Source of the DNA: Polytrichum commune
Lineage: Eukaryota; Streptophyta; Polytrichopsida; Polytrichales; Polytrichaceae
NCBI GenBank assembly: GCA_950295325.1
Contig: OX485805.1
Coordinates: 9,920,501-9,984,500 of the forward strand
Reading direction: 5' to 3'
Length of the DNA: 64,000 nt
Shown here: positions 26,777 to 49,809 of the stretch, in pieces
Numbering within the stretch: position 1 is the stretch's first letter
Layout of the letters: every line of letters starts with the position of its first letter
Notes under the pieces: model-generated
Told to the model about the DNA's origin: nothing
What the model saw: the letters and a program-made list of their open reading frames with translations, nothing else
Databases searched by the model: none
Translations under genes and position numbers: made by a program

Positions 26777-29525
26777 TCATTCAACGTGGGTTGCTTCTTC
26801 TGCGATCCGAGCAAGGTTGTCTTTTGCAAAAGTTATGTACTTTTGAGGGATGGACACTGATCCACTATGATTTTTCCGTGGTTTCCATGCTATGAATATG
26901 GAATCTGTATCTACCCAAGATGGACCATGCTCAGAATCCACCTTCCACCGAAAGTTAGGGTTTGTATCCCAGCCTGTATAATGCCGAACAACATCTTCAT
27001 TCCGTGCTGTCGGTCGGTAGTACTCTACTTGTATTTGTCGAAAATGAGGGCTGGAAGTTACAAAATTTGGTTTGGACAAAGCTCTTGCCACCCACACTGG
27101 CTTTGCATATGTCTCATCTCCAGGACCCAAAATGAGCATATAACCTTCATGACAATCCACTGCAATGCGGAAAGATGGTGGCGGACGACTACTAGCAGGC
27201 CCCACGTAATGGTCGTCCACATCAAACTCCTCTTGAACCTCTCCATTTCCCAAAAGACTAGCCTCCGAAGCTTGTACATTGACACGTGTTTGTGGCCAAA
27301 ACCCATGCCTTAAAGTAAGGGGTGTATCTTGATGAAGGTTTGCCAAAGCGCCACGAACACGTGTCCAATATTGTATCCAACTTCCGTAACGAAGCCAACA
27401 CGATCCACCAACATCCGCTACCCTCAAACTCTCCCAATATTGTATGAAGCCTGATATGCCTTTACAAATGTCCTCCAAATTCTTCATGGGTATTGGTTTG
27501 CAAGGCTTAGGCTCTCCGTCAGGCAACATCGTCCTTCCTTCCCCATCAACACTCCATACAAGGAGACCCTCCGGCGGGCTCCAGTCTTGTGATGTGCACA
27601 ACAACTTGTATTGCATGGCGGGGACACCATCGTCACGCACGTAGAACCGAAATTGTTGTGCCTTCGTATGCCCGATCAATCGGTGAGCTCCGCTTCGAAT
27701 ATACGGTTCTATAAATGCCTTGAAGTCTGGAACCTCCTCGATCATATGGGGGATGACGGGAATGTTCTCCAAATTCATGTACGACTTCATCAACAATGGG
27801 ATTGTTGGAAAATCCTCCTCGCGCAACTTCATGCTCCACCGCCCAAAGGACGCATCAATATCATCGTGCGTATGGCCTACCAATAGAAAGGACACAAAAA
27901 CCTCCTTGAAAATGCCTTTCGCAACCAACAACGACCAATATGCAAAAACATATCTACTTTTATTGTCCTTCGCACAATTGTCCAATTGGACACGCAGAGT
28001 TGGGGGCAACTTCTTGGCAATCACATCTTCACTTGGTGGCTCCGGCAATGAGTGCACGCATACATCTCTTCCATCCAAGACCGCTTCATATAGAGGTGTT
28101 GATCCCGAGTTTTCAAATAACAATCTTGATGAATAGGACGGCGGTTTCTCCAAATCACGTAAAAGCTTTGCAAATGACCCTATCGTGTGGTTTGAATCCG
28201 CCGGATACAAATCAAGAGCATAATGAGCATATTTGACATCACCATGCCCATGTGCAATCATTCCTGCAAAGGCAACCCAATGGTTTAATATTCAACTATA
28301 ACACCAAAAAATTCACATGGTGTACATGTATGGCCCCAAGTACAAACCTAAACGCACAAATTTGTGTTTAGGTAATGCAATGCAATTGTTATCAAAATCA
28401 CCTGTAACCGAAACAGGAAGCTTAAAAAGGCCGTCCGTGGCTTTGATTCGATTTGCAAAACATGGTGAGGCTGTTTTGGCATGGTCCATCTTGTCATGGA
28501 TGATTGTAAGGACTTCCAAAGGCCTGGAGATGGACAAAGCTCTATTTGTGTAGTAATCATTACGGTGTGCCTCTTGCATGTTCACATGCTTGAAATAGTT
28601 CATTTGATGTGCGGCATAGGACTCTGTCCCCATCGTGTGTGCATCTCGAAGGCGTTTCAACTTCTCGCATTTGGAACAATGGGCAAATTTGTCGCCTCGT
28701 CTTTTTGTGATGTATTCGCTAAAGTGAGATTTTTTGATAGCACTCAGTTTCGACAACGAAATTGGGTCCAACCCGGCCTTCTCGCCAACTGCGTTTACGT
28801 CCAACAATATGTCTTTCCATTTCGTGCCTGTAGGAAGAACCTTCTCCACAACCTTTTCACCGGTTGCGAGTGTGCGTGTTTTGTGCGGCATTGCATCGGC
28901 AAGGGGGACAATGATGGTTGCCAAAGTGGCTGTTGCTTGTCTCGTTGCTTCTCTTGGTTTCTTTAAGCCCATGTTCCCATGGTGACGGGCACGGCGGCCT
29001 TCATTGGCATACGCGGCTTGTCTATAAAATTCCGCTTTCGACACACCATGAATGGTGTACCATGCCGTACAACACACGTCTATGCTCTCAAGGGTGATGA
29101 CCTTGCGACCCGCTCCGTTCACATGTATCGCCCTATGGACATCAAGTTTTTTGGTGGATCTTAGACGGAAATCTCCAAGCCACATTTCTTCACGGATGGC
29201 CTTCAATTTATCTCTTGGGAACAATTGGCAACAACGATGTACACAACAATCCTTCGTAGCAACTTCTCTAATAGACTCCTCACAGAGCAACCTTTGACGT
29301 TTACACTTATTTGCAGACGGAGTAGGACGTGTCAATGTTTCGTACTTCCGAAGGCCTTTGCGTGGCCGAATGTTTGCTTGGAGCTCCTGTTGGATTTGGA
29401 CATGTCGTCGCTCATGGTCGCGCAAGCTAACCCCCTCAATTGTCACATTCCTCAACGGCCACCTTCGCAACGAGAACCTATGAATTGGATTGACTTCCGA
29501 ATGGACGACACTTGTATGTGAGCGT

Positions 29526-29584
<59 letters not shown>

Positions 29585-29740
29585 TTTGGAGAGCGGAGAG
29601 CGTAGAGGAAATAAAAATAGTAAACTTGTCAGACTAAAATTAGGATATTCCAAAATAGCCAAGAATATACCAAGAATATTCCAGAATTTGACAATAATAG
29701 TAAAAAAATTGGACCTATTTCCGTGGGATGTATAGGTCAT
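26777..29740 (-). CDS. DUF7869-type protein (transposase-derived?), two exons, open reading frame
   Basis: Exon 1 (29,740-28,348) ends TTAG|GTTTGT. Exon 2 (28,263-26,777) follows acceptor TTTGCAG, giving an 84-nt intron. The joined frame is 960 codons with no break. Exon 1 has a Cys-rich block (DCCVHRCC), a region near HGNMGLKKPREATRQAT, then C-x2-C (HCSKCEKLKRLRDAH). The junction creates RLGMIAHGHG. Exon 2 carries LDNCAKDNKSRYVFAYWSLL and LLVGHTHDDIDASFGRW, the core I associate with DUF7869, a widespread domain often taken as a degenerate or unclassified DDE nuclease. The C-terminal half (DCHEGYMLILGPGDE...) may be an added chromatin-binding-like module; that is a guess. The true start is uncertain: the first 70-100 codons include a 7-bp CTCTCCG repeat giving SPLSALR runs, so a start downstream of about 29,520 is likelier. 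Confidence 0.7.
29523..29610. repeat. 7-bp tandem repeat (agcggag)
   Basis: About ten copies of a 7-bp unit lie at the 5' part of the DUF7869-like gene. On minus, three units encode a 7-residue repeat (SPLSALR). A related stretch in opposite orientation occurs at 45,588-45,632, with some shared flank (ctctacgctcacata). Confidence 0.9.
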
Positions 29741-30060
29741 AAAATAAAATAAAAACCCTGAATTTGAAATGGTCTCATTAAGTTTGGAAACCGTGAGGTG
29801 GTTGAATTATTAAAACCAATGATGACTACAAAAAAAATCAATGAAAATGGATTTTTTGAGATTGGTATAATTGAAGAATGAGTCAATCAATATACAAAGG
29901 AATCAAAATAATAAACTTGCTTGGTTTTTATTCATCACTTTTCTCTTTGTCTTATATGTGAGTCTATTCTATAGCTTGGACTTTAGCAATTATCGTTTGT
30001 GGCCGAATAGATTATAAATTGGACTCATACCCAACATAATTGTATATACAGTTGCACACA
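29741..30060. promoter_or_regulatory. Intergenic region between divergent genes, TATA-like box at about 30,011
   Basis: An AT-rich spacer between the minus-strand DUF7869-like gene and the plus-strand gene at 30,061. ATTATAAATTGG at about 30,010-30,021 lies about 45 bp before the plus-strand ATG and may be its TATA box. Confidence 0.35.
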
Positions 30061-30528
30061 ATGGGAGATGAGAGAGACATGTTTGCTGGATTAGGATGGG
30101 AGAAGGAAATTAGAAGTCTAGGAGATCCTCATATTCCATTTAATCCATCGCCGGAATTTGAGTTTGCTGCTGGAAATCAAAGTAGTGATGACTATGAGCT
30201 GACTCCATTTTCGCAGTCTACACAAGCATGGAGGTGGAGGGTGCAGGAGGAGCAAAAACAATATGAGAAAAAGGAAAAAAGGCAGGAAGATGTGCCGGAG
30301 AAGGATGTTGATTTAGATGAAGACAAATCGAACGAAACGGAGGAGGAGGTGAAGGTGGAAGGGGAATCTTCGAAGTCTCTTTCATTTCGCGAACGGATGA
30401 GAGGAATGACGCCGCATCATCTTCCGCTGAAGGATCGAAAGAGAGATAAGACAATTTCTTATATGGATTTGCTTCGACCGGGTCCACCTCCCTCGCAATC
30501 ATCTAAGAAGTATGCAAAACGGAAATAG
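30061..30528 (+). CDS. Small hydrophilic protein of unknown function (155 aa)
   Basis: I do not recognise it. The single open frame starts MGDERDMFAGLGWEKEIRSL; an in-frame ATG 21 nt earlier would add MYIQLHT and is less likely. The N-terminal third is mixed and could fold. The middle is highly charged (KKEKRQEDVPEKDVDLDEDK). The C-terminal part is basic with Pro runs (GPPPSQSSKKYAKRK). There is no signal peptide, membrane helix or zinc finger. A possible TATA box lies about 45 bp upstream and AATAAAAATAAT at about 30,573 could be a poly(A) signal. It sits between two transposase-like genes and has codon-like composition without stops. Expression is unproven. Confidence 0.5.
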   Translation: MGDERDMFAGLGWEKEIRSLGDPHIPFNPSPEFEFAAGNQSSDDYELTPFSQSTQAWRWRVQEEQKQYEKKEKRQEDVPEKDVDLDEDKSNETEEEVKVEGESSKSLSFRERMRGMTPHHLPLKDRKRDKTISYMDLLRPGPPPSQSSKKYAKRK

Positions 30529-30689
30529 AGTTGATAGACATAGGAAGCATTGTAATACAAAATTTTGAAGCAAATAAAAATAATCATTGAGATTATACCT
30601 TTATTATATCAATCAATTATTGCTTCACAAGAGGTCCAGAAATGGACACATATATCATAGCCCAAAGTACTGCTAGGCTGAGATAAATC

Positions 30690-33600
30690 CTAAGAAGTAG
30701 ACTTTGTCAAAAGACCCCCTTCGAAGATGAGTTTGACTTCGTTGAAGCTAAATGTCGGGGCGTGAATGAACAAATTCACTTCCGCATCCAAATTAGAAAC
30801 CTTGATGAAAATGTAATACAAATGCTTACAATTCAAATAAGAATTTCGTTTGCGGCTGAACTTGGAAATCATATCCAAGAAAAATGCGCAGTTGCACTCT
30901 GTAAGAGAACTGACTGTCACTTGGTAGATCGGTGGTTGGGGTTCTGATTTGGACTGCAGTGTGATAATGCAACCAAATCCCGGTTGAGGGATCATAGTTA
31001 ACTTCATAACGGTACCATGCATAGCTTCAGCAGAGGCCACCATCTGCCTCTGCTTTGCCGAAGGTGCGCTACTGGATCGCCGAACAAGCTTGGACAATCT
31101 TGTCGGAGGGATCATGTCGGGGTTTTCTGGAACACGGATTCCAGACATATCCAGTGGGGGAGCAGAGTTGGTGAAGAGTTGAGTCGGTGTGATGCGCTCC
31201 TTTGGTGGGAGTTGAAAACCTGCGTTCTCAAGGGCGAAGATATCCGAGCGGGTGAGGTTGGTACCAATCTTCACGGGCCAGATTGGGGGAATAGGAGGCT
31301 TCTGGTCATGAGCAGAGAACGGCATGACCCATTTCCGACGAGGGCCCTTCACGCAACGCTCAATGTCGTCGGGGCAAAAGACAAAGTCCGTGTGCTTCAT
31401 AGATTGGAGTTTGTAATGATGCCACATACCGGTGTAGGTCGGCGCAGGGACGCTCTTATTATTAGTGACGATTCTTGCGGTGCACTTCTTCTTCGTGCCC
31501 GCATGATTAGCCCAACAAGACTTCCCAGACGTATAGGGTATGCGGGCAATATGCCAAAGAGAGACATCTACTTTGGTTTCTTGCACGGCAGTGACACGCT
31601 GGAAACCAAGTCCTGCAGGTGAAGGCACTTGAACCTCTTGTACAGAGGGGGAAGACTCCTCAATGATAGTGGGTAGTGTTTCTGGTTGAGATCGAGTGAC
31701 ACGCTTACCGGGGGGAGGACGAGAGAAGTTCACGGTATCGGGGCGGTGGGTCTCGCCATCATCACCAATTGGAGTGTCTGATCTTCGCTTCTGCGATCCA
31801 AACACCTCGGCGCCCTCAAGGTGTGGATCGCGAGTGCAAAATTCTTCCCCACCGGACATGTCAAGCAAGACCTTCTGCAACACTGTGGGGTCGCCAGTAC
31901 GCTGAGCTCGACGTTGAGCACCCCTGAGCTTTAGTTCTTCTTTGCTTGGACCATCTCCGCCAATTCCACCTTTAAGGAACTGGTAGTATGCAACAACTTG
32001 TAAGAAGGCGCGAATGTAGTCGTCAACCGTAGCCACGTATAGATCTCCACCCTTGTTGCCGGAGGCTTGAAGCCATTTGTTGTGGATGGACTCCGCAAGA
32101 TTGCACGACGGCATCTCGGCCAATTGGTCTTGGATTAAAACCTTTTCCTGATTGGAGAAATCAAGTATTAATATAAATGTACAGAGAGAGGAAATCGAAT
32201 CCAAGAAAAACCAATAATGAATTATGAAGGAGATGTACCAGTTCCATGAAACCACCCCATTGAAGGTAGCGGAAGTGCCAAAAAGCAAGCCAGAGCTGAA
32301 GATGCTTGATACCGTCCTCACTTGTACAATTCGATGACGCCCACCAAGCCTTGATAGCTAGGTACCTAGTCTCAGCCTCTTCCATAGATGACGCATTTCG
32401 ATATTGAAGGCAAAGATGTCTATGTTGGTCTTGTAACTCATGCTTTATATACGATTTCGTATGTTTTTCGAGCGATTGTTTCCAATGGAAAAAACAAGTG
32501 CGCTCACGACCCTCCATTGGAACTTTGGGATCCCCCGAACCATATACAATGCGAACAGCGTTCCAATTGGCTTGGGCACTGTCCGCCATGAAGCCTATAA
32601 AGTTTGGATGTGGGATACCGTGTCGGGCCATGACGTGGTTGAGGTTCTGCCAGAAGAGAACTTGGGCATCCTTATCCTCCGATTGGAAATCACAACATGA
32701 AATGGTCATGACCCGTTGATAAGTCCCATCGTACACATGAGCGGCCATGGTGGTCCACCCTTTGACCCGCTTCACGTGATCGGACATCATCCACGCGTTC
32801 TCCAGGTCCCCACCCGGTTGCATCCGACGAACCAAATCCACTCCACTTCCAGGACCAACCTCCGACATCTTGAAGACGAACACCTTGTCTGTATCGTCAC
32901 CTTGTCCTGGGAATTGGTTCCGTTGGACGTAGGCCCAATTGCTAACGCCTCGGAGCTTTGCGATGCCATCCATAACACCAAACCTCCGCAAATATTTGAA
33001 AGAGGTAACCTTAGAGCAAAGGTTTGGGGAATTCAACTCTCTACAGCTCTCAAAAACAGGTTCAAGCTCTTTTAAAGAGAAGAGACGGTGTGTGTCATTA
33101 TCGCCAGAAAGGAGAAACTCACCAACAATGTCCTTGCTAGCTTCAAGGACGATCTTGCTGTGGGTGGCTTGAGGCGTACGTTCAACGTGCTCCTCAAGAA
33201 GTGCATTGATACGCTTCCGACTGTCTCTGCAGTCTCCAACCTTCACTGGATGTTGATGAGAACCGAGATGAATGCAGGCTCTTTGGGATGACTCCTTCCC
33301 ATGGACGTAGAAGATTTTGGCCTCGCATAGTGCAATGCATTTGGGAGGCTCTTTACAGATCCTGCAGACAAGAGTAGATCCGGATGGCACAATGCCAGAG
33401 AGACGGAAAGGATCTTTAGTGAAACCTTCAAATTCTGTGTCATTGACCTTAGAGGTACGATGGGCGCGTTGAAGGTAATCACAACTCGGGTTTTGGCATT
33501 GGAGATGGCCAACACAGGTAGAGGAACGAAATGCAAGGCCAACGTCGTTTGTAATGTTGGTGGTTTGAGTCTTAGTCCAAACATGGCCATCATATTGCTT

Positions 33601-34032
33601 GTCCATGCCGTCCAACGACTTGGCCCTGGTTTGAGATGAAGAGACTTCTGCTGCAGGGAGGACAAATAACTAGGTGCCATCGAAACGAGGGGGAAGGTGA
33701 TTAACTTCTTGGATTTTGATTTTATCGTAATCTATTTTCTTGAGGACGTTCTTACTACCGGGCATAGAGCCAAGACGACGAAGACATTGAACAATAGTTT
33801 GAGGAGGTTTAGATGTAGGGACCGAAGGAGTTGAAGGGACAAAGCTAGATGGAGAAGGCGTTATGTAGGATGCAAAGGGAAACAAATGAGGGGAATCATG
33901 GACAGCAACCTTATACACTGGTACATCTTCACTCGAAGAATCAGACAAGTCTATAACGTTGTCTACACCAGGCTCGGTCTTGACGCTTATTACGGGGGGT
34001 GTGCTAAAGGCAACAGTGGATATCATGTGCAC
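30690..34032 (-). pseudogene. Mutator-like transposase with SWIM zinc finger, copy 2 (one nonsense codon)
   Basis: It is better preserved than copy 1 at 4150-7934. Exon 1 runs 34,032-32,239 and exon 2 32,147-30,690, around a 91-nt phase-0 intron (CTG|GTACAT ... CAATCAG). The start region is acidic (DLSDSSSED). A TAG at about 33,671 interrupts the frame where copy 1 reads Val; otherwise both exons are open. Features: Cys/His block after SLDGMDKQYDG, DDE-like core with MADSAQANWNAV, then C-x3-H (CFFHWKQ), and a C-terminal SWIM finger (CNCAFF ... LNCKHLYY). The N-terminal domain seen in copy 1 is missing: the satellite at 34.08 kb starts right there. Readthrough or a downstream start at 33,615 could still give a long protein. 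Terminal inverted repeats were not found. Confidence 0.75.
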
Positions 34033-36077
34033 ATCATGTTGCTCTCGGCCTTGTCTCGTTTTGTGTAGTGCACAAGAACGAGCTAGGGCAAGAGGCCTCG
34101 GATCCGAGGCCTCATATTTGTGTAAGTTTGAGTATGTGAGAGGTAGGGTTTTGAGGGAGGTGAGGTTCTTGATTTCTCAACCTAATAGAATGTCAACTTT
34201 CTTGCTTTCTTGATTCCTTGCTCTCGGCCATTTCTTCTATTGTGTAGTGCATAAGTGGGAGCCATAGGAAGAGGCCTCGGATCCGAGGCCTCTTATTTGT
34301 GGGTAGGTTTGTGCTTGAAAAATCAAAATGTTATGTGCACATCAATTGCTCTCGGCCTTGTCTTGTTTTGTGTAGTGCATAAGAAGGAGCTAGGGGAAGA
34401 GGCCTCGGATCCGAGGCCTCTTATTTGTGTAAGTTTGAGTATGTGAGAGGTAGGGTTTTGAGAGAGGCGAGGTTCTTGATTTCTCAAACTAATGGAATGT
34501 CAACTTTCTTGCTTTCTTGATTCCTTGCTCTCGGCCATTTCTTCTATTGTGTAGTGCATAAGTGGGAGCCATAGGAAGAGGCCTCGGATCCGAGGCCTCT
34601 TATTTGTGGGTAGGTTTGTGCTTGAAAAATCAAAATGTTATGTGCACATCCATTGCTCTCGGCCTTGTCTTGTTTTGTGTAGTGCATAAGAAGGAGCTAG
34701 GGGAAGAGGCCTCGGATCCGAGGCCTCTTATTTGTGTAAGTTTGAGTATGTGAGAGGTAGGGTTTTGAGAGAGGTGAGGTTCTTGATTTCTCAAACTAAT
34801 GGAATGTCAACTTTCTTGCTTTCTTGATTCCTTGCTCTCGGCCATTTCTTCTATTGTGTAGTGCATAAGTGGGAGCCATAGGAAGAGGCCTCGGATCCGA
34901 GGCCTCTTATTTGTGGGTAGGTTTGTGCTTGAAAAATCAAAATGTTTTGTCCACATCGATTGCTCTCGGCCTTGTCTCGTTTTGTGTAGTGCATAAGAAG
35001 GAGCTAGGGGAAGAGGCCTCGGATCCGAGGCCTCTTATTTGTGTAAGTTTGAGTATGTGAGAGGTAGGGTTTTGAGAGAGGCGAGGTTCTTGATTTCTCA
35101 AACTAATGGAATGTCAACTTTCTTGCTTTCTTGATTCCTTGCTCTCGGCCATTTCTTCTATTGTGTAGTGCATAAGTGGGAGCCATAGGAAGAGGCCTCG
35201 GATCCGAGGCCTCTTATTTGTGGGTAGGTTTGTGCTTGAAAAATCAAAATGTTTTGTCCACATCGATTGCTCTCGGCCTTGTCTCGTTTTGTGTAGTGCA
35301 TAAGAAGGAGCTAGGGGAAGAGGCCTCGGATCCGAGGCCTCTTATTTGTGTAAGTTTGAGTATGTGAGAGGTAGGGTTTTGAGAGAGGCGAGGTTCTTGA
35401 TTTCTCAAACTAATGGAATGTCAACTTTCTTGCTTTCTTGATTCCTTGCTCTCGGCCATTTCTTCTATTGTGTAGTGCATAAGTGGGAGCCATAGGAAGA
35501 GGCCTCGGATCCGAGGCCTCTTATTTGTGGGTAGGTTTGTGCTTGAAAAATCAAAATGTTATGTGCACATCAATTGCTCTCGGCCTTGTCTTGTTTTGTG
35601 TAGTGCATAAGAAGGAGCTAGGGGAAGAGGCCTCGGATCCGAGGCCTCTTATTTGTGTAAGTTTGAGTATGTGAGAGGTAGGGTTTTGAGAGAGGCGAGG
35701 TTCTTGATTTCTCAAACTAATGGAATGTCAACTTTCTTGCTTTCTTGATTCCTTGCTCTCGGCCATTTCTTCTATTGTGTAGTGCATAAGTGGGAGCCAT
35801 AGGAAGAGGCCTCGGATCCGAGGCCTCTTATTTGTGGGTAGGTTTGTGCTTGAAAAATCAAAATGTTATGTGCACATCAATTGCTCTCGGCCTTGTCTTG
35901 TTTTGTGTAGTGCACAAGAACGAGCTAGGGCAAGAGGCCTCGGATCCGAGGCCTCATATTTGTGTAAGTTTGAGTATGTGAGAGGTAGGGTTTTGAGAGA
36001 GGCGAGGTTCTTGATTTCTCAAACTAATGGAATGTCAACTTTCTTCCATTTTTGATTCCTTGCTCTCTGCCTTGTGC

Positions 36078-39000
36078 CCCACGGGCGAACGCCCGTGGGC
36101 CATGTAACAAGTAACTTGGTTAGGCATGTCTTTATGAGGCACTTTGGTTGGTTCTGAGTATGTAAACTAGTTTGTGTGTGAGGCCTCGGATCCGAGGCCT
36201 CTCGGCCGAGGCCACTTGAGGTTTTTTGATTCAAAGTATAACTTGTATGAATGAGGCACTTTGCTTGTTTTTGAGGATGTAAACTAGTTTGTGAATGAGG
36301 CCTCGGATCCGAGGCCTCTTTTATGTGTTCCAAAACAAGTGTAGAGAAGAGGCACTTTGGTTGGTTTTGAGTATGTAAACTAGTTTGTGAATGAGGCCTC
36401 GGATCCGAGGCCTCTTTTATGTGTTCCAAAACAAGTGTACGGAAGAGGCACTTTGGTTGGTTTTGAGTATGTAAACTAGTTTGTGTGTAAGGCCTCGGAT
36501 CCGAGGCCTCTCGGCCGAGGCCACTTGAGGTTTTTTGATTCAAAGTATAACTTGTATGAATGAGGCACTTTGCTTGTTTTTGAGGATGTAAACTAGTTTG
36601 TGAATGAGGCCTCGGATCCGAGGCCTCTTTTATGTGTTCCAAAACATGTGTACGGATGAGGCACCTTGGTTTGTTTTGAGTATGTAAACTAGTTTGTGAA
36701 TGAGGCCTCGGATCCGAGGCCTCTCTTATGTGTTCCAAAACAAGTGTACGGAAGAGGCACTTTGGTTGGTTTTGAGTATGTAAACTAGTTTGTGTGTAAG
36801 GCCTCGGATCCGAGGCCTCTCGGCCGAGGCCACTTGAGGTTTTTTGATTCAACGTATAGCTTGTATGAATGAGGCACTTTGCTTGTTTTTGAGTATGTAA
36901 ACTAGTTTGAAAATGAGGCCTCGGATCCGAGGCCTCCTTTTAGTGCCCTCGATCAGCAGTCCCCAGGGAGTGGCTCCCGGGACTCCGAATGTTCAAACAG
37001 GCATAACTTCCTTGATTTTTGCCCAAATGGGGCAAGTGAGGTGTCCATCGGCATCTACATTTCACGTAGATGACGATAGAGTGGTTGATTGTTAGATTCG
37101 GAGACCACACGTGGAAGATATGGAGGTCTGAAGCTGCCGGGGGGGGGGAAATGTGTTTTGTTAAGTGCATATGTAGAAGCTAGGAGAAGAGGCCTCGGAT
37201 CCGAGGCCTCTTTTATGTGTTCCAAAACTAGTGTACGGATGAGGCACTATGGTTGGTTTGGAGTACGTAAATTACTTTGTGTGTGAGCCCTCGGATCCGA
37301 GGCCTCTCAGCCGAGGCCACTTGAGGTTTTTTGATTCAACGTATAGCTTGTATGAATGAGGCACTTTGCTTGTTTTTGAGTATGTACACTAGTTTGAAAA
37401 TGAGGCCTCGGATCCGAGGCCTCCTTTTAGTGCCCTCGATCAGCAGTCCCCTGGGAGTGGCTCCCGGGACTGCGAATGTTTAAACAGGCATAACTTCCTT
37501 GATTTTTGCCCAAATGGGGCAAGTGAGGTGTCCATCGGCATCTACATTTCACGTAGATGACGATAGAGTGGTTGATTGTTAGATTTGGAGACCACACGTG
37601 GAAGATATGGAGGTCTGAAGCTGCGGGGGGGAGGGAAATGTGTTTTGTTAAGTGCATAAGTAGGAGCTTTGGGAAGAGGCCTCGGATCCGAGGCCTCTTT
37701 TTTGTGTCAAGGTTTGTGCTTGAAAAATCAAAATGTTAGGTTCATTTTTGAATTCTCTCGGCCATTTTCTGTAGTATGTATTTCATAAGGAGGGGCATTC
37801 GGAAGAGGCCTCGGATCCGAGGCCTCATTTTTGTGTCAAGGTATGTGCTTGAAAAATGAAAATCTTATGTTCATTTTTGAATGCTCTTGGCCTTCTTGTT
37901 TTGGGTAGTGCATAAGTAGGTACTTTGTGAAGAGGCCTCGGATCCGAGGCCTCATTTTTGTGTCAAGGTATGTGCTTGAAAAATGAAAATCTTATGTTCA
38001 TTTTTGAATGCTCTTGGCCTTCTTGTTTTGGGTAGTGCATAAGTAGGTACTTTGTGAAGAGGCCTCGGATCCGAGGCCTCATTTTTGTGTCAAGGTATGT
38101 GCTTGAAAAATGAAAATCTCATGTTCATTTTTGAATGCTCTTGGCCTTCTTGTTTTGGGTAGTGAATAAGTATGTGTTTTGGGAAGAGGCCTCGGATCCG
38201 AGGCCTCATGTTTGAATCAATTTTATTTAAGAAAAATCAAAATGTTATGTTCGTGTAAGATTACTCTCGGCCTTCTTGTTTTGGGTACTACATGAGTAGG
38301 AGGTTTGTGAAGAGGCCTCGGATCCGAGGCCTCTTGTTTGTGTAAGTTTGAGTATGTGAGAGGTAGGGTTTTGAGAGAGGCGAGGTTCTTGATTTCTCAA
38401 ACTAATGGAATGTCAACTTTCTTGCTTTCTTGATTCCTTGCTATCGGCCATTTCTTCTATTGTGTAGTGCATAAGTGGGAGCCATAGGAAAAGGCCTCGG
38501 ATCCGAGGCCTCTTATTTGTGGGTAGGTTTGTGCTTGAAAAATCAAAATGTTATGTGCACATCAATTGCTCTCGGCCTTGTCTTGTTTTGTGTAGTGCAT
38601 AAGAAGCAGCTAGGGGAAGAGGCCTCGGATCCGAGGCCTCATATTTGTGTAAGTTTGAGTATGTGAGAGGTAGGGTTTTGAGAGAGGCGAGGTTCTTGAT
38701 TTCTCAAACTAATGGAATGTCAACTTTCTTGCTTTCTTGATTCCTTGCTATCGGCCATTTCTTCTATTGTGTAGTGCATAAGTGGGAGCCATAGGAAGAG
38801 GCCTCGGATCCGAGGCCTCTTATTTGTGGGTAGGTTTGTGCTTGAAAAATCAAAATGTTATGTGCACATCAATTGCTCTCGGTCTTGTCTTGTTTTCTGT
38901 AGTGCATAAGAACCAGCTAGGGGAAGAGGCCTCGGATCCGAAGCCTCCTATTTGTGTAAGTTTGAGTATGTGAAAGGTAGGGTTTTGAGAGAGGTGAGGT

Positions 39001-39554
39001 TCTTGATTTCTCAAACTAATAGAATGTCAACTTTCCTGCTTTTTTGGTTCCTTGCTCTCTGCCTTGTGCCCCACGGGTGAACACCCGTGGGCCATGTAAC
39101 AAGTAATTTGGTTAGGTTTTAACATCATCAAATGTGTGCCCCACGGGTGAACACCCGTGGGCCATGTAACAGGTAACTTGGGTAGGATTTAGCATCATCA
39201 CGGGGAGATGTCTCCATGTCAAATATTTTTAAAAATTATGATTTTTTTTCTCTATATTCATAACTATTGATTATATCTTTTGTATATTTTTTTGAAATTT
39301 TTTGTCATCTTCATTTTTCTAGTAATTGTTTTAGTTGAATTCTGCGTCATTCTAGGTAGAAATGGTATGTTTTCTAGAAAAATATGGTCATCAAATTTGG
39401 TCATGATATTTTAGTCCGTAATAGATATCATGTATATCTACGTCCCAAAAAAATTTGAGAAAATTTTGACCCATTTTGGTGATGCAACTTGGCAATGGAG
39501 TGACCTCCCCTGGAACATCATCAAATGTGAACCTCACGGGTGAACACCCGTGAG
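36078..39554. repeat. P4 palindromes (arm CCCACGGGYG, spacer AA), four dispersed copies
   Basis: Copies at 36,078-36,099, 39,070-39,091, 39,140-39,161 and 39,533-39,554. Arms are CCCACGGGCG, CCCACGGGTG, CCCACGGGTG and CTCACGGGTG, and in each the partner arm carries the matching change. All are followed by catgtaaca(a/g)gtaa. 39,200-39,520 is an AT-rich insert with no gene. Confidence 0.92.
36945..37640 (+). repeat. Captured dispersed-repeat fragment, two copies in the satellite
   Basis: About 200 bp at 36,945-37,150 and again at 37,432-37,640 match, inverted, 23,690-23,890. They are almost identical to each other and 487 bp apart, so the fragment entered once and was amplified with the satellite. 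Each starts with an imperfect palindrome (cagtccc ... gggactg). Confidence 0.85.
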
Positions 39555-40440
39555 CCATGTAACAAGTAAATTGGTTAGGTTTTAAAATCATCAAGGAGGG
39601 GCATTTGGAAGAGGCCTCGGATCCGAGGCCTCATTTTTGAGTCAGGTTGTGTGCTTGAAAAATGAAAATGTTAGGTTCATTTTTTAATTCTCTCGGCCAT
39701 TTTCTGTAGTATGTATTTCATAAGGAGGGGCATTCGGAAGAGGCCTCGGATCCGAGGCCTCATTTTTGTGTCAAGGTATGTGCATGAAAAGTTAAAATGT
39801 TATGTTCATTTTTGAATGCGCTTGGCCCTCTTGTTTTGGGTAGTGCATAAGTAGGTACTTTGTGAAGAGGCCTCGGATCCGAGGCCTCATTTTTGTGTCA
39901 AGGTATGTGCTTGAAAAATGAAAATCTTATGTTCATTTTCGAATCCTCTCGGCCTTCTTGTTTTGGGAAGTGAATAAGTATGTGTTTTGGGAAGAGGCCT
40001 CGGATCCGAGGCCTCATGTTTGTGTCAATTTTATGCTAGAAAAATCAAAATGTTATGTTCGTGTAAGATTGCTCTCGGCCTTCTTGTTTTGGGTACTACA
40101 TGAGTAGGAGGTTTGTGAAGAGGCCTCGGATCCGAGGCCTCATTTTGGAGACAATGTATGTGCTTGAAAAGTCAAACTGCTATGTTCACATAAGATTTCT
40201 CTCGGCCTTTTTCTTTTGGGTAGTGCATAAGGAGGAGGTAGGAAAAGAGGCCTCGGATCCGAGGCCTCTCATTCGTAGGTAGGTTAGTGCTAGAGTTGAG
40301 CACTTGACTTAGCATTCGGCCATTTCCATTTGTAGTTTGCTCTCGGCCTTGTATTGTTTTTGTGAGGATTTGTTTCTTTATAGTTACGAAGTTATTGACT
40401 TTTCTTTGTGAAATTCTCAATTTCTCCATGTTCTTAGGAT

Positions 40441-43400
40441 ATGGACTCTTCACAGGTTGCGCAATCGCAACCCCAATCTGGAGAGGATGTTGTTCTTGCG
40501 GCCCCCGCGGTTGAAGTTGAAGCTGTGCAGGTTGAGAGTCTCAATTCGCAGGGCCCATTACAAGTAGAGGTGAGTTGGATAGTTGTTGAATAATTTGTTA
40601 AGCAAGTTTTTTGAGTTCTAGCTTTCTAAGCATGGTTTTATTGTTTGTGTTTTTGTTAGGCTCTCGCAATGAGCGAAGATGCCGTTCAAGCAGTTGCCGA
40701 CACGGATCCCGTGGTGTGTGAGCTTGAGCTTCGGAAATCACAAAAGGAGGACTCCATTGGTGTTATCCAACGCCTTCGGATTAAGCCAACATGTAAGTCC
40801 CGCTTATCCATTCCTTTATGCCGCTTGAGAGCCCTCTCTCTCGTCCGTCCTATCAGTGAGGTTGAGGTGCAGCGCTTGGAATGTGAATTTGTAATGGGAT
40901 ACCGAGAGGGTGATCGGGTTCTTTACGTGTCTTCTTTCAACGACGTTCCCGTGGACCTCCCCATTCCCCCTGGCATTATGGCCTCTTGGAGCCCTCTCTG
41001 GCAAGAGGCCTCCGCAGAATTTGACGCCAAGCTCAAGGAGGATCCGGATCTTGCACATTTCGCCGGGAAGATGTTCTTCGTCTGGGAAGGCAATCATCGT
41101 CTCACCGCTTGGTGGAGACACATCAATAACCACCACGCCGATGACAAGAGTTGGCATATCTCGGTGGATTGCATTGTTGTTGACCCTAGAGGATACACCG
41201 GTATATTCCTCAATGCCATGAGCGACATTAATTGGTAAGCTCACTCATTTTTTTCATTCATTTTTCATTTTTGTTTCAATTCTTTTCCATTCTTTTCAGC
41301 TCACGTTCCTCACATATTTTTTCTCAGGTCAACCGAGCATGATTATGTCAAGGCAAACATTCCGGCCAAGCTCCTTCGAATCCGCACTTTTGGGAGGTTA
41401 GAGTTGTCCACCTTCAAGGATCTTATATCGCCATCTGACTACAAAGCATGCGAGAAGATAAAGGAGAGTCGCCCAACTTGGTACACCTTGACCGCGGATG
41501 TGTTCGTTAAGTTTCTTTACAAGGTATGGTTTTATGCATTCAATCATTTAGAGCTTCCAACATAGATAATTTCCATACCGATTATATGAACTCACAAGGT
41601 CATTTCTTGCAGAGAGACATTTCGGCTCAAGCAGACCTTGCAGTGAGGCATTACCGTGAGACCACACCCGTTGCGGAGAGGTCGGCCACTGAGATTTGGA
41701 ATGTTATGACCAAGGCCCAGGAGAGGATAATCAAAAGTATTCGGGCCCGTTCTTTTGAGAAGTACATATCCGTTGCACACCCTGACAATGGAGAGGATTT
41801 CTTTCATGAGGTACTCTTTTGAACTCAAATCACTCTTGAACGCAATTCATCCAAATCACTCTTCAACTCTATTACTCTTTTGAACTCAAATCATTTTTAT
41901 TTTGTGCACAGATTGACCGTCATTTTAATGAGTTCTCTTCGACGGACATGACAATTAAAAAATTGCAAAAAATTGTCACATGCCCGGTCGAAGCTTCGTT
42001 CAAAGCTAAGTGGCTTCACTGGTGGAACGCCCCCCTTCGTGAAAGGTTAGATAACAAGTTCCCCGTCGACAAGCCTATGAGGGAGAGGGCTTTGGACGAC
42101 TGGCTACACAAGGCGTCCTTCTGGGCTCAAGTAAATCCATTCCTCGGCCTTCTTCATTTTCATTTTCCTCTATTCCATTTATTTCATATCTAATCATCTC
42201 CTTCTCTGCAGTTGGAGAAAGAAGTCGCGGTTGAAATTGAGACCTTAGAGGAGAGCCTCTCCGTCGACATTGATTGGGACGCATCAGAAACTATCTTGCG
42301 CCCTCGTGAGTACGTTGATCATTGGCGGATTGTCCTTTGGGACAAGGCCTTCAAGCCTTATCTCGGCGATAAGCCTGACATCGCATTTGCCAAAGGTGAT
42401 AATCTCTTGGAGTTCGAGGAGGGGGCTCTCGCTATCAAGCGTGTAGCCTATCGGTAATACATCTATCCTCCACTTTGCACCTCTCCTTAATGTCATTTCT
42501 TGCTCGTTTTGTTGGTTTTCTTACATTCTTGTTTTGTCATGTAGGTATATCATGAGAGAATTGGTTGTGAAGAATGCATTGGCCTCATCTTCCTTGCCGG
42601 ACTACCTCTCGGACTGGGTGAATATTTTTTCTAGCCTCTGCGTGTATACGACCGCGCAAACAAACAAGTTTTCCGAATTGCACTTGCAGGGTGGTGGATG
42701 GTACTTGGATTGTGCTGCAGGATTTGTCCCCGGGGAAGAGAAGGCTTTGTTTGCTAGCCTTGTGGGTAGTGCTCTGGATAATAACATTGTTACCTTGGAG
42801 GACCCTGACATTGTTGAGCTTCCCCCTCCTCCTCCTAAGGCACCAAGGAGAAAGGGCAGAGCAAAGAAGACCGCCACTCAAGCATCTACCCAAATTCTCA
42901 CTCGGTCTGCTTCTAAGACCCCGGTTGAGCCACCCACCCTTCCACACAGTCCATCTATCGCTCCCTCCGTTGCTCCCTCTCTTGCCCCTTCTGTTACTCC
43001 ATCTGCATTTCATCCACAATCTCTTGCCACTCCATCTCATAGTGGCACTTCTCTCCTCTCTTTGCCTCGCAAGAGGAAGGCCGCTCTCTTGGATACCAGT
43101 GCCACCTCTTCGGATGCCACTAACACGCTTACCCTCATCGAAAATGTGGACATGGTTCAACTAATGCTGGATTCCGAGGTTGCCGGAGGTCCCCTCCCCG
43201 CATATACCCGCATCCAAGAGTTCATTGCCAAGGTTTGTATACTTGCCTTCGTCAATTCTCAATTTTTTTTCCTTTGCTTTGTTTATTTCTTTCCTTCTTA
43301 TTTTCTCATGAAGTTTCAATTGCAGGTTGGGGCAGGTCGTTCCCGTGTGAACACCTCGACTACAACTCACAAGGGCCTCGATTTGCTCTTCGCCGACATT

Positions 43401-44641
43401 CCCGAAAATTTGCCGGTGCCGAACATCTCCACCGATGTTCCTGCTTGGAACAAGCTCCATGAATCATACTATGAGTGTCTTTTTGCATTTGCGAAATCTA
43501 ACCTCTATGATCATGGTGTCCTTGTTCTTGCCCATTGTGCGAGTGCCAGTGTTTTTAGGAGTATTTTCGATTGGGCACACACTTATGACTTCTACGTCGC
43601 GGAAGATTGGTTTGGAATGAATGATTTAGACCTCCAATCTCCCGTTGTTCCCTCTGGAGTGGTAAGCAAGTCTCCCTCTCTTCCCCTTCCGTATTGCTTA
43701 TCATTTCAATTTCAATTCAATTTCAATTCCATTTCATTTCAATTCAATTTCATTTTCATTGTTGCAGACTCGGAAGTTCAACATCAAAGTTCTTGTTCGT
43801 GTTAACTCCGTTCTTAGAGTGCGGGAGGAGGCCATACAAGAGTATGGTTACAACCTCCAACGAGATGGATGGTTGAATACCTTCACCGATGAGAAGAGCC
43901 AGACGATGCGCAGTGATGGGGTACCTTGGCGAGGTACCCATGAGAAGCATCCTGTTTTTTTTTCCATCCTTCTCGCTACTCTCACCGACAAGAATGATGT
44001 TATTATGGACTGGCAGTGTGGTATAGGTACGCCTTCTTTTTCAACTTCATCCTTACTTTGAATTTTCCATTATTTTTCCTTGACTAGTTTTCATACTAAC
44101 ATTTTACCTCTCTTTGCTTTAGGTGGTTCGATTACAGCATGTCGCTCCCTTGAGCGGCATATTGTGGCCCTTGAGAGTGACCCCGTCATTTTCAATTCAC
44201 TCCTACTCCCCATGCGCGATCCCCAGCCTGCGCGTATATCTCGCTCAGTTGCCGCACCGTCTACATCTATCTTTGATCCTCCTCAAAAGATGACCAAGAG
44301 GGCATTCGGATTTCTTTGTGCGTAAGTTTGCTTTCTATATTTTGCCATGTTTGCTTTGATTTCAAATTCTCATTTTCTAGTGTCATCATGTTTCTAATCC
44401 TTTTGCTTGGGTGTTTAGAGAGCCAGCGGAGGTCGCAGTCATTCGTCGAGACATGTTTTCAAGTCCTCCGAAGCCGTTTGAGCTTCCCCCGTATGCTAGT
44501 GCAATGGCGGATTGTTTTGCGAAGGCGGAGTCCCCATCTCCTCCTCGCGTTCGTCATTTCTCGCGTGGAACACGAAATCTTTTCTTGTTAGAAGCAAATG
44601 AGGGTGAGGAGAGTGATAGGGAATGTTCTCCAAGCCCTTAG
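40441..44641 (+). CDS. ParB-like and beta-class DNA methyltransferase-like fusion protein, 11 exons
   Basis: Exons: 40441-40569, 40660-41234, 41328-41523, 41613-41810, 41912-42130, 42212-42453, 42545-43232, 43326-43661, 43768-44026, 44123-44321, 44419-44641. All junctions are GT-AG and keep phase, giving 1087 codons. The start ATG follows a possible 5'-UTR acceptor (TTCTTAG, 40,437). Residues about 90-250 resemble a ParB/sulfiredoxin-type fold, with VWEGNHRLTAWW at 184-195. Residues about 610-700 are a basic, Pro/Ser-rich linker. The C-terminal part has methyltransferase motifs in beta-class order: IV-like LLFADIPE (769-776; canonical DPPY changed), X-like THEKHP (918-923), I-like DVIMDWQCGIGGS (938-950) and an acidic loop ALESDP (963-968). 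Catalysis is doubtful without DPPY. In bacteria and phages ParB-like and methylase domains are often joined. AATAAA lies at 44,697. Confidence 0.75.
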
Positions 44642-44696
44642 TTTATCATTTTGGTTTTGGAGATTATAACTCCGTTTGTTGTTGTTATCCGGCTTT

Positions 44697-44702
44697 AATA
44701 AA
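44697..44702 (+). terminator. Poly(A) signal AATAAA
   Basis: A canonical hexamer 56 nt after the stop codon of the methyltransferase-like gene, in a T-rich context. Confidence 0.6.
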
Positions 44703-45470
44703 AGTTGTGTGTTGGTTTTATTTTTGATATCCGGCGCAAGTTTCATTCTTTCTTTCCATTATTTCATATTCATATGTCAACCCGCATTGCATTCTTTATT
44801 TTTTCTTCATCGTTCGGATCTCTTAACTTCTAGTCACAAAACAATCTAGCTCTCGGCTCTTAGTGTGAGATCTTAGTTATAGGGGGACCATACTTTCTAT
44901 TAGTGTGGATGGTTTATTTTATGGTTGTGCACACTAATCACATTGGCCGTCTTCCAATCCCAATTGCTATATAGCAATTGGAAGTTTTGTTTGGCACGCG
45001 AACATAACCTCGTCAAACTTTTTAAATTGAAATTCATGTTGTTCTCAAAGAGCCGGCACGTCACCTCAAAAATTTCCAAGAGGATTCTAAGGTTGGACTT
45101 GGGGGATTTGTCTTTGAGGTCTTTGGCTAAGCTAAGGACTGAATTGGAAGGCTGTTATGGTGCGACGGAGTTTTATGGCATGTTCTTTGGATCATTTTAC
45201 CCATATTGGACATGCCCGGCAGATAGGGTGTAGATGGCCCTAAACTAGAGTATATAGTTATTTTAACTAACTACCCATTTTTGTAAGTCTTGAGGTTGGC
45301 TACATTTTGTTGACCAATAAAATATTTTGTGTATGGTATTTTGATTTCAATTTGGTGACGTCAGCCCTAATTTAATATGATACATTTGAAAACATATACT
45401 ATAAGATGTTTGATAACAAATGCAATCTTCCACGCCTATAGGATCCGTTGGTTTCTCAAACAATTCTGGG
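44703..45470. other. Spacer, no gene recognised
   Basis: A frame at 44,925-45,233 is open but has no recognisable motif and a poor start, so I do not call it. 44,965-44,985 holds a small inverted repeat (ccaattgctatatagcaattgg). Confidence 0.4.
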
Positions 45471-46023
45471 TTATTATGTCCACGGGAATGGGGGTACCTT
45501 TCCAAATATAGAATTCAAACTATCTCTAATTCCACGGAAATAGGCACTGCTTCTCCTAAAATTACCCAACAAAATCTAAATTTTCCGCTCTCCAATCTCC
45601 GCTCTCCGCTCTCTGCTCTCCGCTCTACGCTCACATACTTGAGTTTCCCACTTCCGAATGTACGAGTGATTCTAATATAACAACTCCAACGTCCTCGGTG
45701 CCAAGGGGGTGTTCATCAATGCAATCTTGTGGATGTGTGTTACGACAAATACCCTCCGCCACAGTAACTCCACTGTCATTAACAAGTACCACATCCAAAT
45801 TCACCCATGAAGCTCGTGAAAGCCCCGCACATTCCACAATGGGGCAAAAAGGGTCAGATGGCGAAGGACTCCCCAAATGACCTTCATCTGCACTGTCATC
45901 AAAACTATCCTCCCCGACAATGTCTAGCTCATCCCCAGACAGAGATTGGGTGCTGCCCATGTCTTCAGAGAAGGAATCCCCTCTTCCACCAACTCCCTCC
46001 ATTACGCCTACACACATGCACAT
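45471..46023 (-). CDS. Possible exon of a transposon-related gene (partial)
   Basis: On minus, 46,023-45,631 is open for 130 codons with an acidic N-terminal half (SGDELDIVGEDSFDDSADEG) and a more structured end (WVNLDVVLVNDSGVTVAEGI, HPLGTEDVGVVI). The end resembles small C-terminal domains found in plant CACTA-type gene products, but the match is weak. The adjoining 45,530-45,655 carries, on plus, sequence like the 5' end of the DUF7869-like gene (tccacggaaatagg, CTCTCCG repeat, ctctacgctcacata). So this is a patchwork of transposon pieces. Start, splice sites and function are unknown. Confidence 0.3.
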
Positions 46024-46197
46024 GAAACCTCAACAAACATGGACACAACGTAAGGGTCCAAAAGAATCAAATATTGGAAAATGCAAAACATCACGATGAA
46101 TGGGGACACTGAGGATCAAGACATTTGCAACACAAATGCAATGTGAGCTCCCAATACTGTGCGCCAGTCCACAAAATGTTCCACAAAATATTTTGGG

Positions 46198-47275
46198 TGG
46201 GAGTTTGGGTCGGCCGACCTAAACCCTGTGGCACCAGGGATTGAGGGCCATCCCCACCTTGCCCGTGGGATAGGGTCGGGTTCCGGTCGACCGACTCAAA
46301 CCTTGTACAATGATGGGTTGAGGGCCATTTAGAATTCCATCACACTGTGGGGAAAACTTTGGGTCGACCGACCCAATCCTTGTCATGGTCAACTACAACC
46401 GCCGAAACTGGGGAAGGGGTTTGGGTCGACCGACCCAAACTTTCACAGGGTAAACCCACCCACACTCAGAAGGGGTTTGGGTCGGTCGACCCAAACTTTC
46501 ACAGGGTAAGTCCACCCACACCGGGAAAGGGTTTGGGTCGGTCGACCCAAACTTTCGCAGTGTAAATCCACCCACACTGGGATGAGGTTTGGGTCGCTCG
46601 ACCCAAACATTACATATGATGGGATAAGGTTCCTACTCTGTCCGTCCAAACCTTCTGAGTACCTTGGGTAAGGGCCATTAACAATTCGTTCACGATGTGC
46701 GAAAAAGTTTGGGTCGACCGACCCAAACCTTCTAAAAGGTTTTACGATAAACGCCCACAGTGGGGTAGGGGTTTGGGTCGACCGACCCAAACCTCACAAG
46801 GGTCAGAGTAGACCCCCCCCCAACACTAGTGAAGGGGTTTGGGTCGACCGACCCAAACCTCACAAGGGTCAGAGTAGACCCCCCCCCCAACACTAGTGAA
46901 GGGGTTTGGGTCGACCGACCCAAACCTCACAAGGGTCAGAGTAGACCCCCCCCCAACACTAGTGAAGGGGTTTGGGTCGACCGACCCAAACCTCACAAGG
47001 GTCAGAGTAGACCCCCCCCCCAACACTAGTGAAGGGGTTTGGGTCGACCGACCCAAACCTCACAAGGGTCAGAGTAGACCCCCCCCCCAACACTAGTGAA
47101 GGGGTTTGGGTCGACCGACCCAAACCTCACAAGGATCAGAGTAGACCCCCCCCCCCAACACTAGTGAAGGGGTTTGGGTCGACCGACCCAAACCTCACAA
47201 GGGTGAGACTAGAACCCGCCCACACTACTAGAGGGGTTTGGGTCGACCGACCCAAACCTCACAAGGGTCAGACTG
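46198..47275. repeat. P1 palindrome array, partly a 67-bp tandem repeat
   Basis: 46,198-46,745 holds about eight diverged P1 units. 46,770-47,275 holds about eight tandem copies of a 66-67-bp unit: one P1 palindrome (spacer AC), ctcacaagggtcagagtaga, a C run that varies from 7 to 10, and aacactagtgaagggg. Frames through it read FGSTDPN on both strands. A cut-off palindrome half lies at 47,293. Confidence 0.93.
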
Positions 47276-49809
47276 GAACCCGCCAACACTAGTGTCGACC
47301 GACGTATAATACAGCGTATAATGCGGCGTATAATGCAGCGGATATTGAGAGGTGTGTGGAATTTCAGCTCATTGCAAAGTTCACTGCGCACTTGCATGCT
47401 GTGGATAGGTCCTCATGAACAGCAGCGTGAACGAACCTCGAAGTACAGCTCCGACTAAGAGTTCTCTCTACGAATTCAGGAGTGGGAGAAGAGCAAAAAG
47501 AAACCAACTTTTGGGGGGTGCGCCCCTTTATACTATCCACCTCCACTTGCCCGACTTCCTCATTGGATGCCTTTCCCGCCTTGTTATTTCAAACCTCCTG
47601 ACAGAATTCCCCGTTTTCTGTTTATTGTAGAAAATGTGCATCTTTCAATGCCCCTCTCATACCCCAGCCGTCATATGATTTAGTCTATGATATTTAATTT
47701 TTTTTTGGTTTTGTGTGTATATGACATACGACATTGGGAGGAAGGGTGGCGGCCACATTAATTTTTTCAAGTGTCACAACGGTATATTTTAACCAATATG
47801 TATACCCAACCACAACTCCATTCAATGCTTTCAAGTGCAAACCTATTTCGGTGGGGTTGGGGCCATTTGGAGGCTGCAATTATGAGAGAGTTTCCAAGGC
47901 TTGAGGCCATTGTCATGATGAATAAAATTATTTATTTGTCTCCCCTAAACCCTAAACCCTAGAACATTGCTCTATTATCTCGCATGGAAGTGTGGCAATG
48001 ATAAACGTATGTAACACTATATTCGTTAAATTCAGACTTTCTCTAGTCTCAAATTAATATATGGATCAAACAAAAACTTCTACAATGTCACCCTAATGCA
48101 TCATATACATATTAAATGATGATATTGATTTACTTTAATTCAAACATTACGGTATGGCATTAACCAATATGTAGACAAAAGAAGTCTAAACATTGTGTAA
48201 CGCCTTATGGTAAGAGTCACTAAATACAATAGTTAAAGTGGTTATGAAGATCCTCGCAAGGGGAATTATTAATTTTGAAATCAAATTATGTCATGACAAA
48301 GTTCATTTATTGTTCCAAATCTGAATTTGCAACAATGCAAGTGACAAGAGCTTTTATATATAATATGTTGTCATCCCTAAACCCTAAACCCTACAATATT
48401 GTCCTCTTCTCTCGCATGCAAGTGTGGCAATGACGAATGTATGTGGACGTCGATAAAGGGATACTAACTACCAATGTCGCTTTTTAGTTCAATATTTCCA
48501 TGCTAATTGAATCCATCCTCAAGTTCACTTCAAGCTTACTAATGTGTGTGAACAAAACATCCAAAGTTGAACCCTAAACCCTTATAACATCCACAACATG
48601 AAATTATACGTATTGACTAAACCATACACCAATTAGTATATCATGTTTAGACGTTCCAAATAACATATTCACATGATCAAGATTGTGGTCACTATAACCT
48701 TCCTATTAGATTCTTCTTAATATATAAACAACATTTCTTATATCTTTCTCCATTATCTAATATACGTGGAGGGAACAATGAACAACAACACGATTGCTTG
48801 CATGGCTTCATTTGATGTTGTGCTTAACCGATTTACGTTTATATCACATTCCATATATTAAATACATCACGAACCATAGTTTATTGGCGACTATGTGATT
48901 CATCAAAGGGAGCAAAACATCCAAAGTTAGACCCCTAAGTCCTAATAACATCCACAACATGAAATGCTATTTGAATAAACACAAGACCAATTAGTATATC
49001 ACGTTTAAACGTCCCAAATAACAACTTAACATACTCAACATCATCTTTACTATAACCTTCCTATAAGACTCTTCTCACCAGTAAGTCAATGTTGTACGTT
49101 AATATTGGATAGATTAATATGTTATAACCATGACTCCTAAACCCTAAACCCTAAACCCTAAACCCCAAATCTTGTAGTTGTTCAGTGCTACCTCCATATA
49201 CAAACAACATCAAGTTTGTCTTGCGCCATTATCTAATATACTTGGAGCGAACCTTCAATAACAACATGATTGCTTGAAGGGCTTCATATGATGTTGTGGT
49301 TCTCCGATTTGCTTTTATATCACATTCCAAATACATATATCACGATCCATGGTTTATTGGCGACTATGTGATTCATCAAAGTGAATATCTAGGGGATACC
49401 CTATAAAACTTGAGCATGTTAGCATTTTGAAATAAAGATCATGCAATTCCAAACCCTCACAATATGCACTTGGGGAAGGTATTCATTTAGGCTCCACATT
49501 CAAATATCCTCAATTTCCGAATTTCATGTTGGGGGGTGGGGATTGTCTTTTTTATTCATTGCATATTGTGTGAGTTGTTGGCATCAATGGTAAAGTCTAT
49601 TGTATTTGGCACGTAATTGTATTTTTTTTATAACGTGCTCAAACAAACGAGAAACCAATGACTTCAACTTGTTTGGAAAATTTAGTTAATGGTGTCATGT
49701 AAGTAGGAATTAAGTATTAGTGTTAGCATAAAGTTGCGTTGTAAAGATGTATTAGTTGTATAAATGGTTTAGTTTTTTAGAATACCTCATTTGATGTATA
49801 CCTTAGGCT
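47276..49809. other. AT-rich spacer with telomere-like motifs and a second 63-bp repeat copy
   Basis: No supported gene. 47,302-47,335 has a tandem gtataatgcggc-like repeat. A minus-strand TATAAA-like string lies near 47,530. AAACCCT motifs occur at 47,943-47,962, 48,374-48,393 and 49,136-49,166 (about four units). 48,005-48,078 is the second copy of the hairpin repeat at 26,250. A diverged internal duplication links 48,540-48,900 with 48,905-49,370 (aacaaaacatccaaagtt/agcaaaacatccaaagtt; gattcatcaaag twice). Confidence 0.55.
49136..49166. repeat. Interstitial telomere-type repeat (AAACCCT)
   Basis: Four consecutive plant-type telomere units. They are short, so this is an internal site and not a chromosome end. 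Confidence 0.85.

Follow-up and report, generated by a model that had tools for sequence, protein, structure and literature searches.

A transposon of the moss Polytrichum commune carrying a gene for a ParB-fold, methyltransferase-like protein beside arrays of its putative palindromic target

What is a gene for a ParB-like domain joined to a beta-class methyltransferase-like domain doing in a moss, and on what would its protein act? The question is raised by 64,000 nucleotides of Polytrichum commune (assembly GCA_950295325.1, contig OX485805.1, positions 9,920,501 to 9,984,500 of the forward strand), hereafter the window, in which a preliminary description had seen a single plant gene of this kind. 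That description read the gene and its motifs rightly and overlooked the transposon around it and the palindrome arrays beside it. The gene almost certainly belongs, as an accessory gene, to a DNA transposon that is present in many copies and has defined ends and a target duplication, and at least 150 matches to its exon 7 are found in its own genome (408 Mb), a few of them pieces of one copy. The locus as a whole is best explained by a ParB-fold protein acting on parS-like arrays of its own transposon, most likely in anti-silencing of the kind known from VANC, an explanation to which we give about an even chance.

The stretch between the transposase gene of the window and the ParB-like gene holds 38 palindromes of the type GAGGCCTCGGATCCGAGGCCTC. 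Counting all perfect palindromes, whatever their type, there are 42 in 34000-40300, whereas Markov sequences averaged 0.0 over 50 runs, and the exact 22-mer of GAGGCCTCGGATCCGAGGCCTC occurs 1903 times genome-wide while its reversed control does not occur. Sites of related elements have the core TCGGNNCCGA in common and are mostly palindromic, but otherwise differ; such sites (3 to 49) are present in the window and in 18 of 20 fetched 10-kb loci, and the relatives el16 and el27 have further sites inside the intron between exons 6 and 7. The bases beside the core are conserved at 0.99 in the window array (40 sites) compared with 0.63 in the flanks, and in all 13 loci counted the six bases to the left and right of the core have an average conservation of 0.87-0.99, versus 0.55-0.86 in the flanks. 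This count covered 13 of 21 loci, leaving out L018, L021, the near-identical L009-L011, and L012, L013 and L028 with few sites. One relative's site, CACCCTCTCGGTTCCGAGAGGGTG, occurs 325+335 times genome-wide (control 0), and the 100 of these among the matches listed form three clusters, each with a listed gene copy. Every site having the core holds two symmetric CpGs, so that methylation could modulate binding there.

The sequence of the sites varies together with that of the protein, and only with part of it. Distances between sites and between proteins were strongly correlated over residues 50-440 (Mantel test, r 0.868, no permutation of 5000 as high) in 14 of 21 loci, the test omitting L009-L011, which are near-identical to the window, L012 and L020, which lack an exon-2 row, and L018 and L021, which have no sites. 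By region, r was 0.867 for residues 50-235 and 0.845 for 236-440 (reached by 0 of 5000 permutations in both), 0.685 for 441-600 (6 permutations), and low for the linker at 620-740 (0.084; 763 permutations) and the methyltransferase part at 745-860 (0.031; 1447 permutations). Four loci (L015, L016, L017 and L019, with L020 as a fifth by residues 236-440) look recombinant, joining an N-terminal half from one clade to a linker and C-terminal half that belong with the window's clade; in these the site type follows the N-terminal half. From this co-variation we infer that the palindromes are probably the target of the protein.

That the palindromes might be passengers, repeats of hairpin or cruciform type that follow a dynamics of their own and are merely linked to the gene, would suit their expansion in tandem, and the co-variation could then be put down to linkage. 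This is very unlikely in our judgement, as the outer arms of the sites in L012, L023, L025 and L028 are not self-complementary (6 of 12 mismatches) while the core dyad is kept, and as site and N-terminal half of el16 (L016) both differ from those of the window although the transposase on the other side is 92-93% alike. The protein of el16 is 66% like that of the window over residues 50-235, 65% over 236-440, 55% over 441-600 and 94% over 745-860.

Several observations nevertheless tell against the palindromes as the protein's target. Linkage alone could produce co-variation, and it may contribute, because the array adjoins exons 1-6 and, in relatives, sits in intron 6; L015-L017, L019 and L020, the recombinant loci, may derive from a single exchange. 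L012 is window-like over residues 441-600 with a different site type, its N-terminus not having been found, and L022 has two window-like sites beside ten of its own type. L018 and L021 are without sites in 10 kb, and the sites of L012, L023, L025 and L028 are palindromic at the core only. Among the matches listed, only 20 of 50 window-type sites lie within 10 kb of a listed gene copy, the others being 29 in one cluster at C1:2.25 Mb without a listed copy and 1 isolated site.

The N-terminal region encoded by exon 2, where the GNHRL at residues 187-191 had been read as ParB-like, has a predicted structure of the ParB/sulfiredoxin (Srx) fold, and we consider this fold very probable. The GNHR of the motif is strongly conserved in the window protein and 78 homologues (G 78/79, N 79/79, H 79/79, R 70/79). 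It is placed between strand 125-129 and helix 131-144 of the predicted model, so that a glycine-arginine nucleotide motif stands at the strand-helix turn as in the ParB/sulfiredoxin superfamily, in which this motif is GxxR, with GCHR in Srx. Profile comparisons speak against the assignment: neither the whole protein nor the exon-2 members matched Pfam, ParB profiles included; alignment with hhalign of the ParB region to 35 ParB-methyltransferase fusions was no better than that of shuffled columns; and no PDB fold match to the exon-2 model reached E 0.001. A profile search of PDB with exon 2 returned a single meaningless match (E 0.62), and a fold of exon 2 from its single sequence was discarded for low confidence (predicted local distance difference test, pLDDT, 39.5). 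When the exon-2 alignment served as query, 398 homologues were found in the protein database at E <= 10 (best 1.3e-110), and the whole-protein query gave no match at E <= 10.

The assignment of the C-terminal half as methyltransferase-like draws on sequence profiles and motifs. Read by eye, the motifs stand in beta-class order, IV before X/I, as had been proposed: D[IV]P[EK]N at 773, WQCG.G at 943 and AL[EK]SD at 963-967, with motif IV in the form D[IV]PEN and motif I as WQCG[VIL]G. The methyltransferase family PHROG 18293 was matched by 7 of 7 members (best E 5.5e-5). DpnA in PDB came at E 0.016, PF01555 gave matches to 3 of the 7 members, all of them below the cut-off (best E 0.052), and an hhalign comparison with the fusions was in register, yet 11 of 60 shuffles did equally well. 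Elsewhere in the genome, PF01555 matches just over the cut-off occur on large contigs at C4:44111740 and C1:9662150, each in an open frame of 577 aa.

An active enzyme with changed chemistry, methylating or otherwise modifying the palindromes so as to mark or shield the element, would account for the purifying selection on this half (0.089 vs L013, 151 codons), the largely conserved D[IV]PEN and WQCG.G and the seven PHROG matches. The catalytic [DNS]PP[YFW] has no match in the aligned rows, however: the change from DPPY to DIPE noted in the window is family-wide, six of the seven rows having D[IV]PEN and the seventh DVPKN, so that the aromatic residue, which N-methyltransferases need, is replaced by Glu or Lys, and FxGxG is altered too. 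Such an enzyme is thus a poor candidate with little probability, and the methyltransferase-like half would rather bind S-adenosylmethionine or DNA, probably without N-methylating bases.

The gene itself is as intron-rich as first described. Its 11 exons were reproduced as an in-frame join of 1087 codons plus stop, with 10 introns that are all GT..AG, the protein having GNHRL at 187, DIPE at 773 and WQCGIGG at 943. Purifying selection bears out this model: the ratio of nonsynonymous to synonymous substitution (dN/dS, Nei-Gojobori) is 0.12-0.21 against paralogues L012, L013 and L014, which are 82-85% identical to the window copy. For L013 (85% identical) the overall value is 0.122, with exon 2 at 0.062, the methyltransferase-like part (151 codons available) at 0.089 and the linker at 0.314; L014 gave 0.147, L012 0.214 and L015-L019 0.159-0.170. 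Over the methyltransferase part, L003, L008 and L010 gave inflated values, probably owing to alignment through non-exon sequence, and these were left out. Among the matches listed, at least 18 exon-7 matches, the window included, are at least 98% identical. To be set against continued constraint are some copies with changed motifs (DILEN in L012, YIPEN in L016, GNHWL in L019) and the near-identical copies, whose dN/dS of 0.54-0.80 comes from few changes, so that recent constraint is not demonstrated. The coordinates of all features are collected in Table 1.

Table 1. Features of the transposon, its genes and repeats in the window
Feature	Position	Strand	Basis or remark
ParB-like/methyltransferase-like gene	40441..44641	+	11 exons, 1087 codons; exon join, dN/dS
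Exons 1-4	40441-40569, 40660-41234, 41328-41523, 41613-41810	+	exon join
Exons 5-8	41912-42130, 42212-42453, 42545-43232, 43326-43661	+	exon join
Exons 9-11	43768-44026, 44123-44321, 44419-44641	+	exon join
Predicted ParB/sulfiredoxin-fold domain, residues 89-234, GNHRL 187-191	40795..41232	+	predicted fold
Beta-class methyltransferase-like domain, exons 8-10, residues 750-1014	43326..44321	+	motifs, profiles
Array of 38 palindromes (20-26 bp) with core CCTCGGATCCGAGG, tandem repeats of several unit lengths	34092..40269		
DNA transposon, 16,147 bp	29503..45649		3 sister copies end matching exactly at 45649; left end set against C4 copy
Target-site duplication ACTTCCGAAT, left copy, 10 bp	29493..29502		flank repeat
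Target-site duplication ACTTCCGAAT, right copy	45650..45659		flank repeat
Left terminal repeat with GAGCGGA 7-bp repeats	29503..29607	+	52/55 bases match reverse complement of right end
Right terminal repeat, inverted	45584..45649	-	match to left end
Transposase gene, one predicted intron (~32148-32238), SWIM-like C-terminus	30690..34021	-	
Small open reading frame	30040..30525	+	similar frame at same place in el16 (by eye)
Junction of ~1.8 kb deletion	34021..34025		L032 7919-9697 without match except array repeats
Second transposase, 38-59% identical to first	4347-7931	+	palindromes also in its intron 6424-6509

The element around the gene has a sister copy of 18,125 bp at C4:43981442-43999566 with its own 10-bp target duplication TGTTTTATGC. 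Mutator-like elements (MULEs) make target duplications of ~8-11 bp, and the 10-bp duplications in both of the 2 copies having both ends suggest an element of this type. It is not firmly assigned to it, because Pfam fails to recognise the transposase: no MULE family was matched, and a SWIM finger in the transposase homologue at 7455-7931 scored below the cut-off (E 0.015). The transposase of the window has lost its N-terminus by deletion and has one in-frame TAG; in sister copy L032 both long frames are open, and at the site of the deletion L032 holds the transposase N-terminus and gene B, basic and AT-hook-like with a GRGRGRG stretch. With ~1.8 kb lost and a stop in the transposase, the ParB-like gene is the intact one in the window copy. 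The window's order of transposase (-), array and ParB-like gene (+) is kept in el16, el27 and L013, the last of which has only 3 sites; in the C4 copy it is transposase (-), gene B (+), palindrome array, ParB-like gene (+), and a frame like gene B was spotted by eye in el16.

This arrangement bears on two further roles for the array. An autoregulator that simply represses or activates promoters of its own element would be in keeping with a window array directly upstream of the ParB-like gene and abutting the transposase frame. But in L032, a complete copy, gene B stands between the transposase and the array, because of which the array is no simple two-way promoter, an idea that was dropped on account of this intervening gene, and 30-40 sites plus the copies in introns are more than a switch needs; we regard this role as unlikely. 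Equally unlikely is a co-factor of transposition that, by binding the palindromes, would fold the element or bring in transposase. The presumed array-binding protein is indeed encoded next to the transposase, and the arrays are of many sites. TnpA of En/Spm acts at subterminal motifs, though, and the arrays here are internal, between genes or in intron 6 (el16, el27), the element ends carrying GAGCGGA repeats instead.

The reading we prefer is that the transposon encodes, beside its transposase, a protein that binds DNA sequence-specifically, and that an array of this protein's palindromic target lies between the two genes. A dimer of the protein would bind the palindromes by means of the N-terminal half, perhaps with CTP (cytidine triphosphate) or a different nucleotide in the GNHR pocket. 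In analogy to VANC, occupation of the array would spread over the element and prevent or undo its silencing, whereby transposase and accessory gene would remain expressed. Anti-silencing as the main role is a tentative proposal, somewhat short of an even chance. A bolder version, speculative and rather improbable in its entirety, is that a nucleotide-switched ParB clamp loads at parS-like arrays in the eukaryotic nucleus and slides over the element, that the tethered pseudo-methyltransferase keeps host DNA methylation off the element along its entire length, and that swaps of the N-terminal half and its array as one unit let families escape each other.

Further palindromes and repeats were seen around the element. 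The left edge of the window (1-8000, with L033) holds a divergent second transposase/ParB-like pair with other palindromes between, namely ACCCTGTGCGTTAACGCACAGGGT (411 genome-wide, control 0) and GTTTGGGTCGNNCGACCCAAAC. Its ParB/methyltransferase homologue in L033, on the minus strand and facing the transposase, is apparently decayed, with 27-40% identity to the window protein (E 3e-47) and a different reading where the window protein has GNHRL. To the right of the element, 45650-49810 is a high-copy repeat (31 candidates scored including the window, main matches 92-99%) with arrays of GTTTGGGTCGNNCGACCCAAAC at 46.4-47.3 kb, in which no gene was identified. An array of TTTACGAACGNNCGTTCGTAAA palindromes, another family, occupies 63252-64000 and L034 1-3520; no homologue of the ParB-like gene was found in L034. 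A 973-bp repeat at 23224-24196 has the palindromes GGACTTCCATCCATGGAAGTCC and GGGCGCTGTCCCGGGACAGCGCCC, which occur in L021 and L026 too, and it is also inserted in sister copy L029. Long inverted repeats at 17833-19252 and 60323-61711, 77% identical and 41 kb apart, at first resembled the ends of a 43-kb element; the right one has palindromes of type GTTTGGGTCG. The window also contains a Ty3/Gypsy-type retrotransposon at 50280-60348 (gag-pol frame 51704-57961), a young insertion, since its repeats at 50280-51639 and 58989-60348 are 99.4% identical, a DUF7869 reading frame at 26780-28291 (E 3.6e-42), perhaps from another transposon, and a DDE_1 transposase fragment at 15108-15752 (E 3.9e-27).

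If the palindromes are the target, a eukaryotic transposon would encode an array-binding protein of ParB fold, and nature would already supply many differing pairs of protein and palindrome. Sequence-specific anti-silencing would become testable with a second protein architecture, the spreading of a clamp would be a possible reason why such systems reach whole elements, and the pairs would offer natural specificity swaps for chromatin targeting in plants. No earlier report of such a protein was found in the literature, judging by titles and the openings of abstracts, with most subscription papers and bioRxiv outside the scope. Bacterial ParB, Noc and KorB, which have palindromic parS-type sites, gave no sequence-profile match, and the gene here is intron-rich and in a eukaryotic transposon. 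Bacterial and phage ParB-methyltransferase fusions (P0001-P0120 and the open reading frame of L047) have the same order, ParB N-terminal and beta-class methyltransferase C-terminal, but are of ~443 aa with DPP and PF.GSG, whereas the present protein has 1087 aa with D[IV]PEN and WQCG.G; common descent found no profile support. The fusion of L047 (202-1533, on the small contig C12) is of bacterial type and comes probably from an associated bacterium; at E <= 1e-10 the protein database contains 479 relatives of it. VirB of Shigella has, to our knowledge, no methyltransferase-like domain. According to the accessible part of its description, VirB is likewise of the ParB superfamily, binds CTP and acts as a transcriptional anti-silencer with a palindromic site, but is bacterial and counteracts silencing by H-NS (PMC10653881). 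Closest in anatomy is VANDAL/VANC of Arabidopsis, where, as far as the accessible parts of the sources go, a transposon-encoded accessory protein likewise has tandem arrays of its target outside coding sequence, in introns as well as upstream of the transposase gene, and protein and target evolve together, targets differing between related families (PMC5735166, PMC10398659). VANC21 binds such arrays in introns and upstream of VANA21; its motif, in the same portion of the source, is the 9-base YAGTATTAY in one orientation (PMC5735166), whereas the sites here are mostly palindromic, 20-26 bp long and with a fixed core. The protein is also unlike VANC in being ParB-fold and methyltransferase-like, and it is the anatomy, an accessory protein with non-coding motif arrays of its own, together with the co-variation of the two, that makes the moss element resemble VANDAL.

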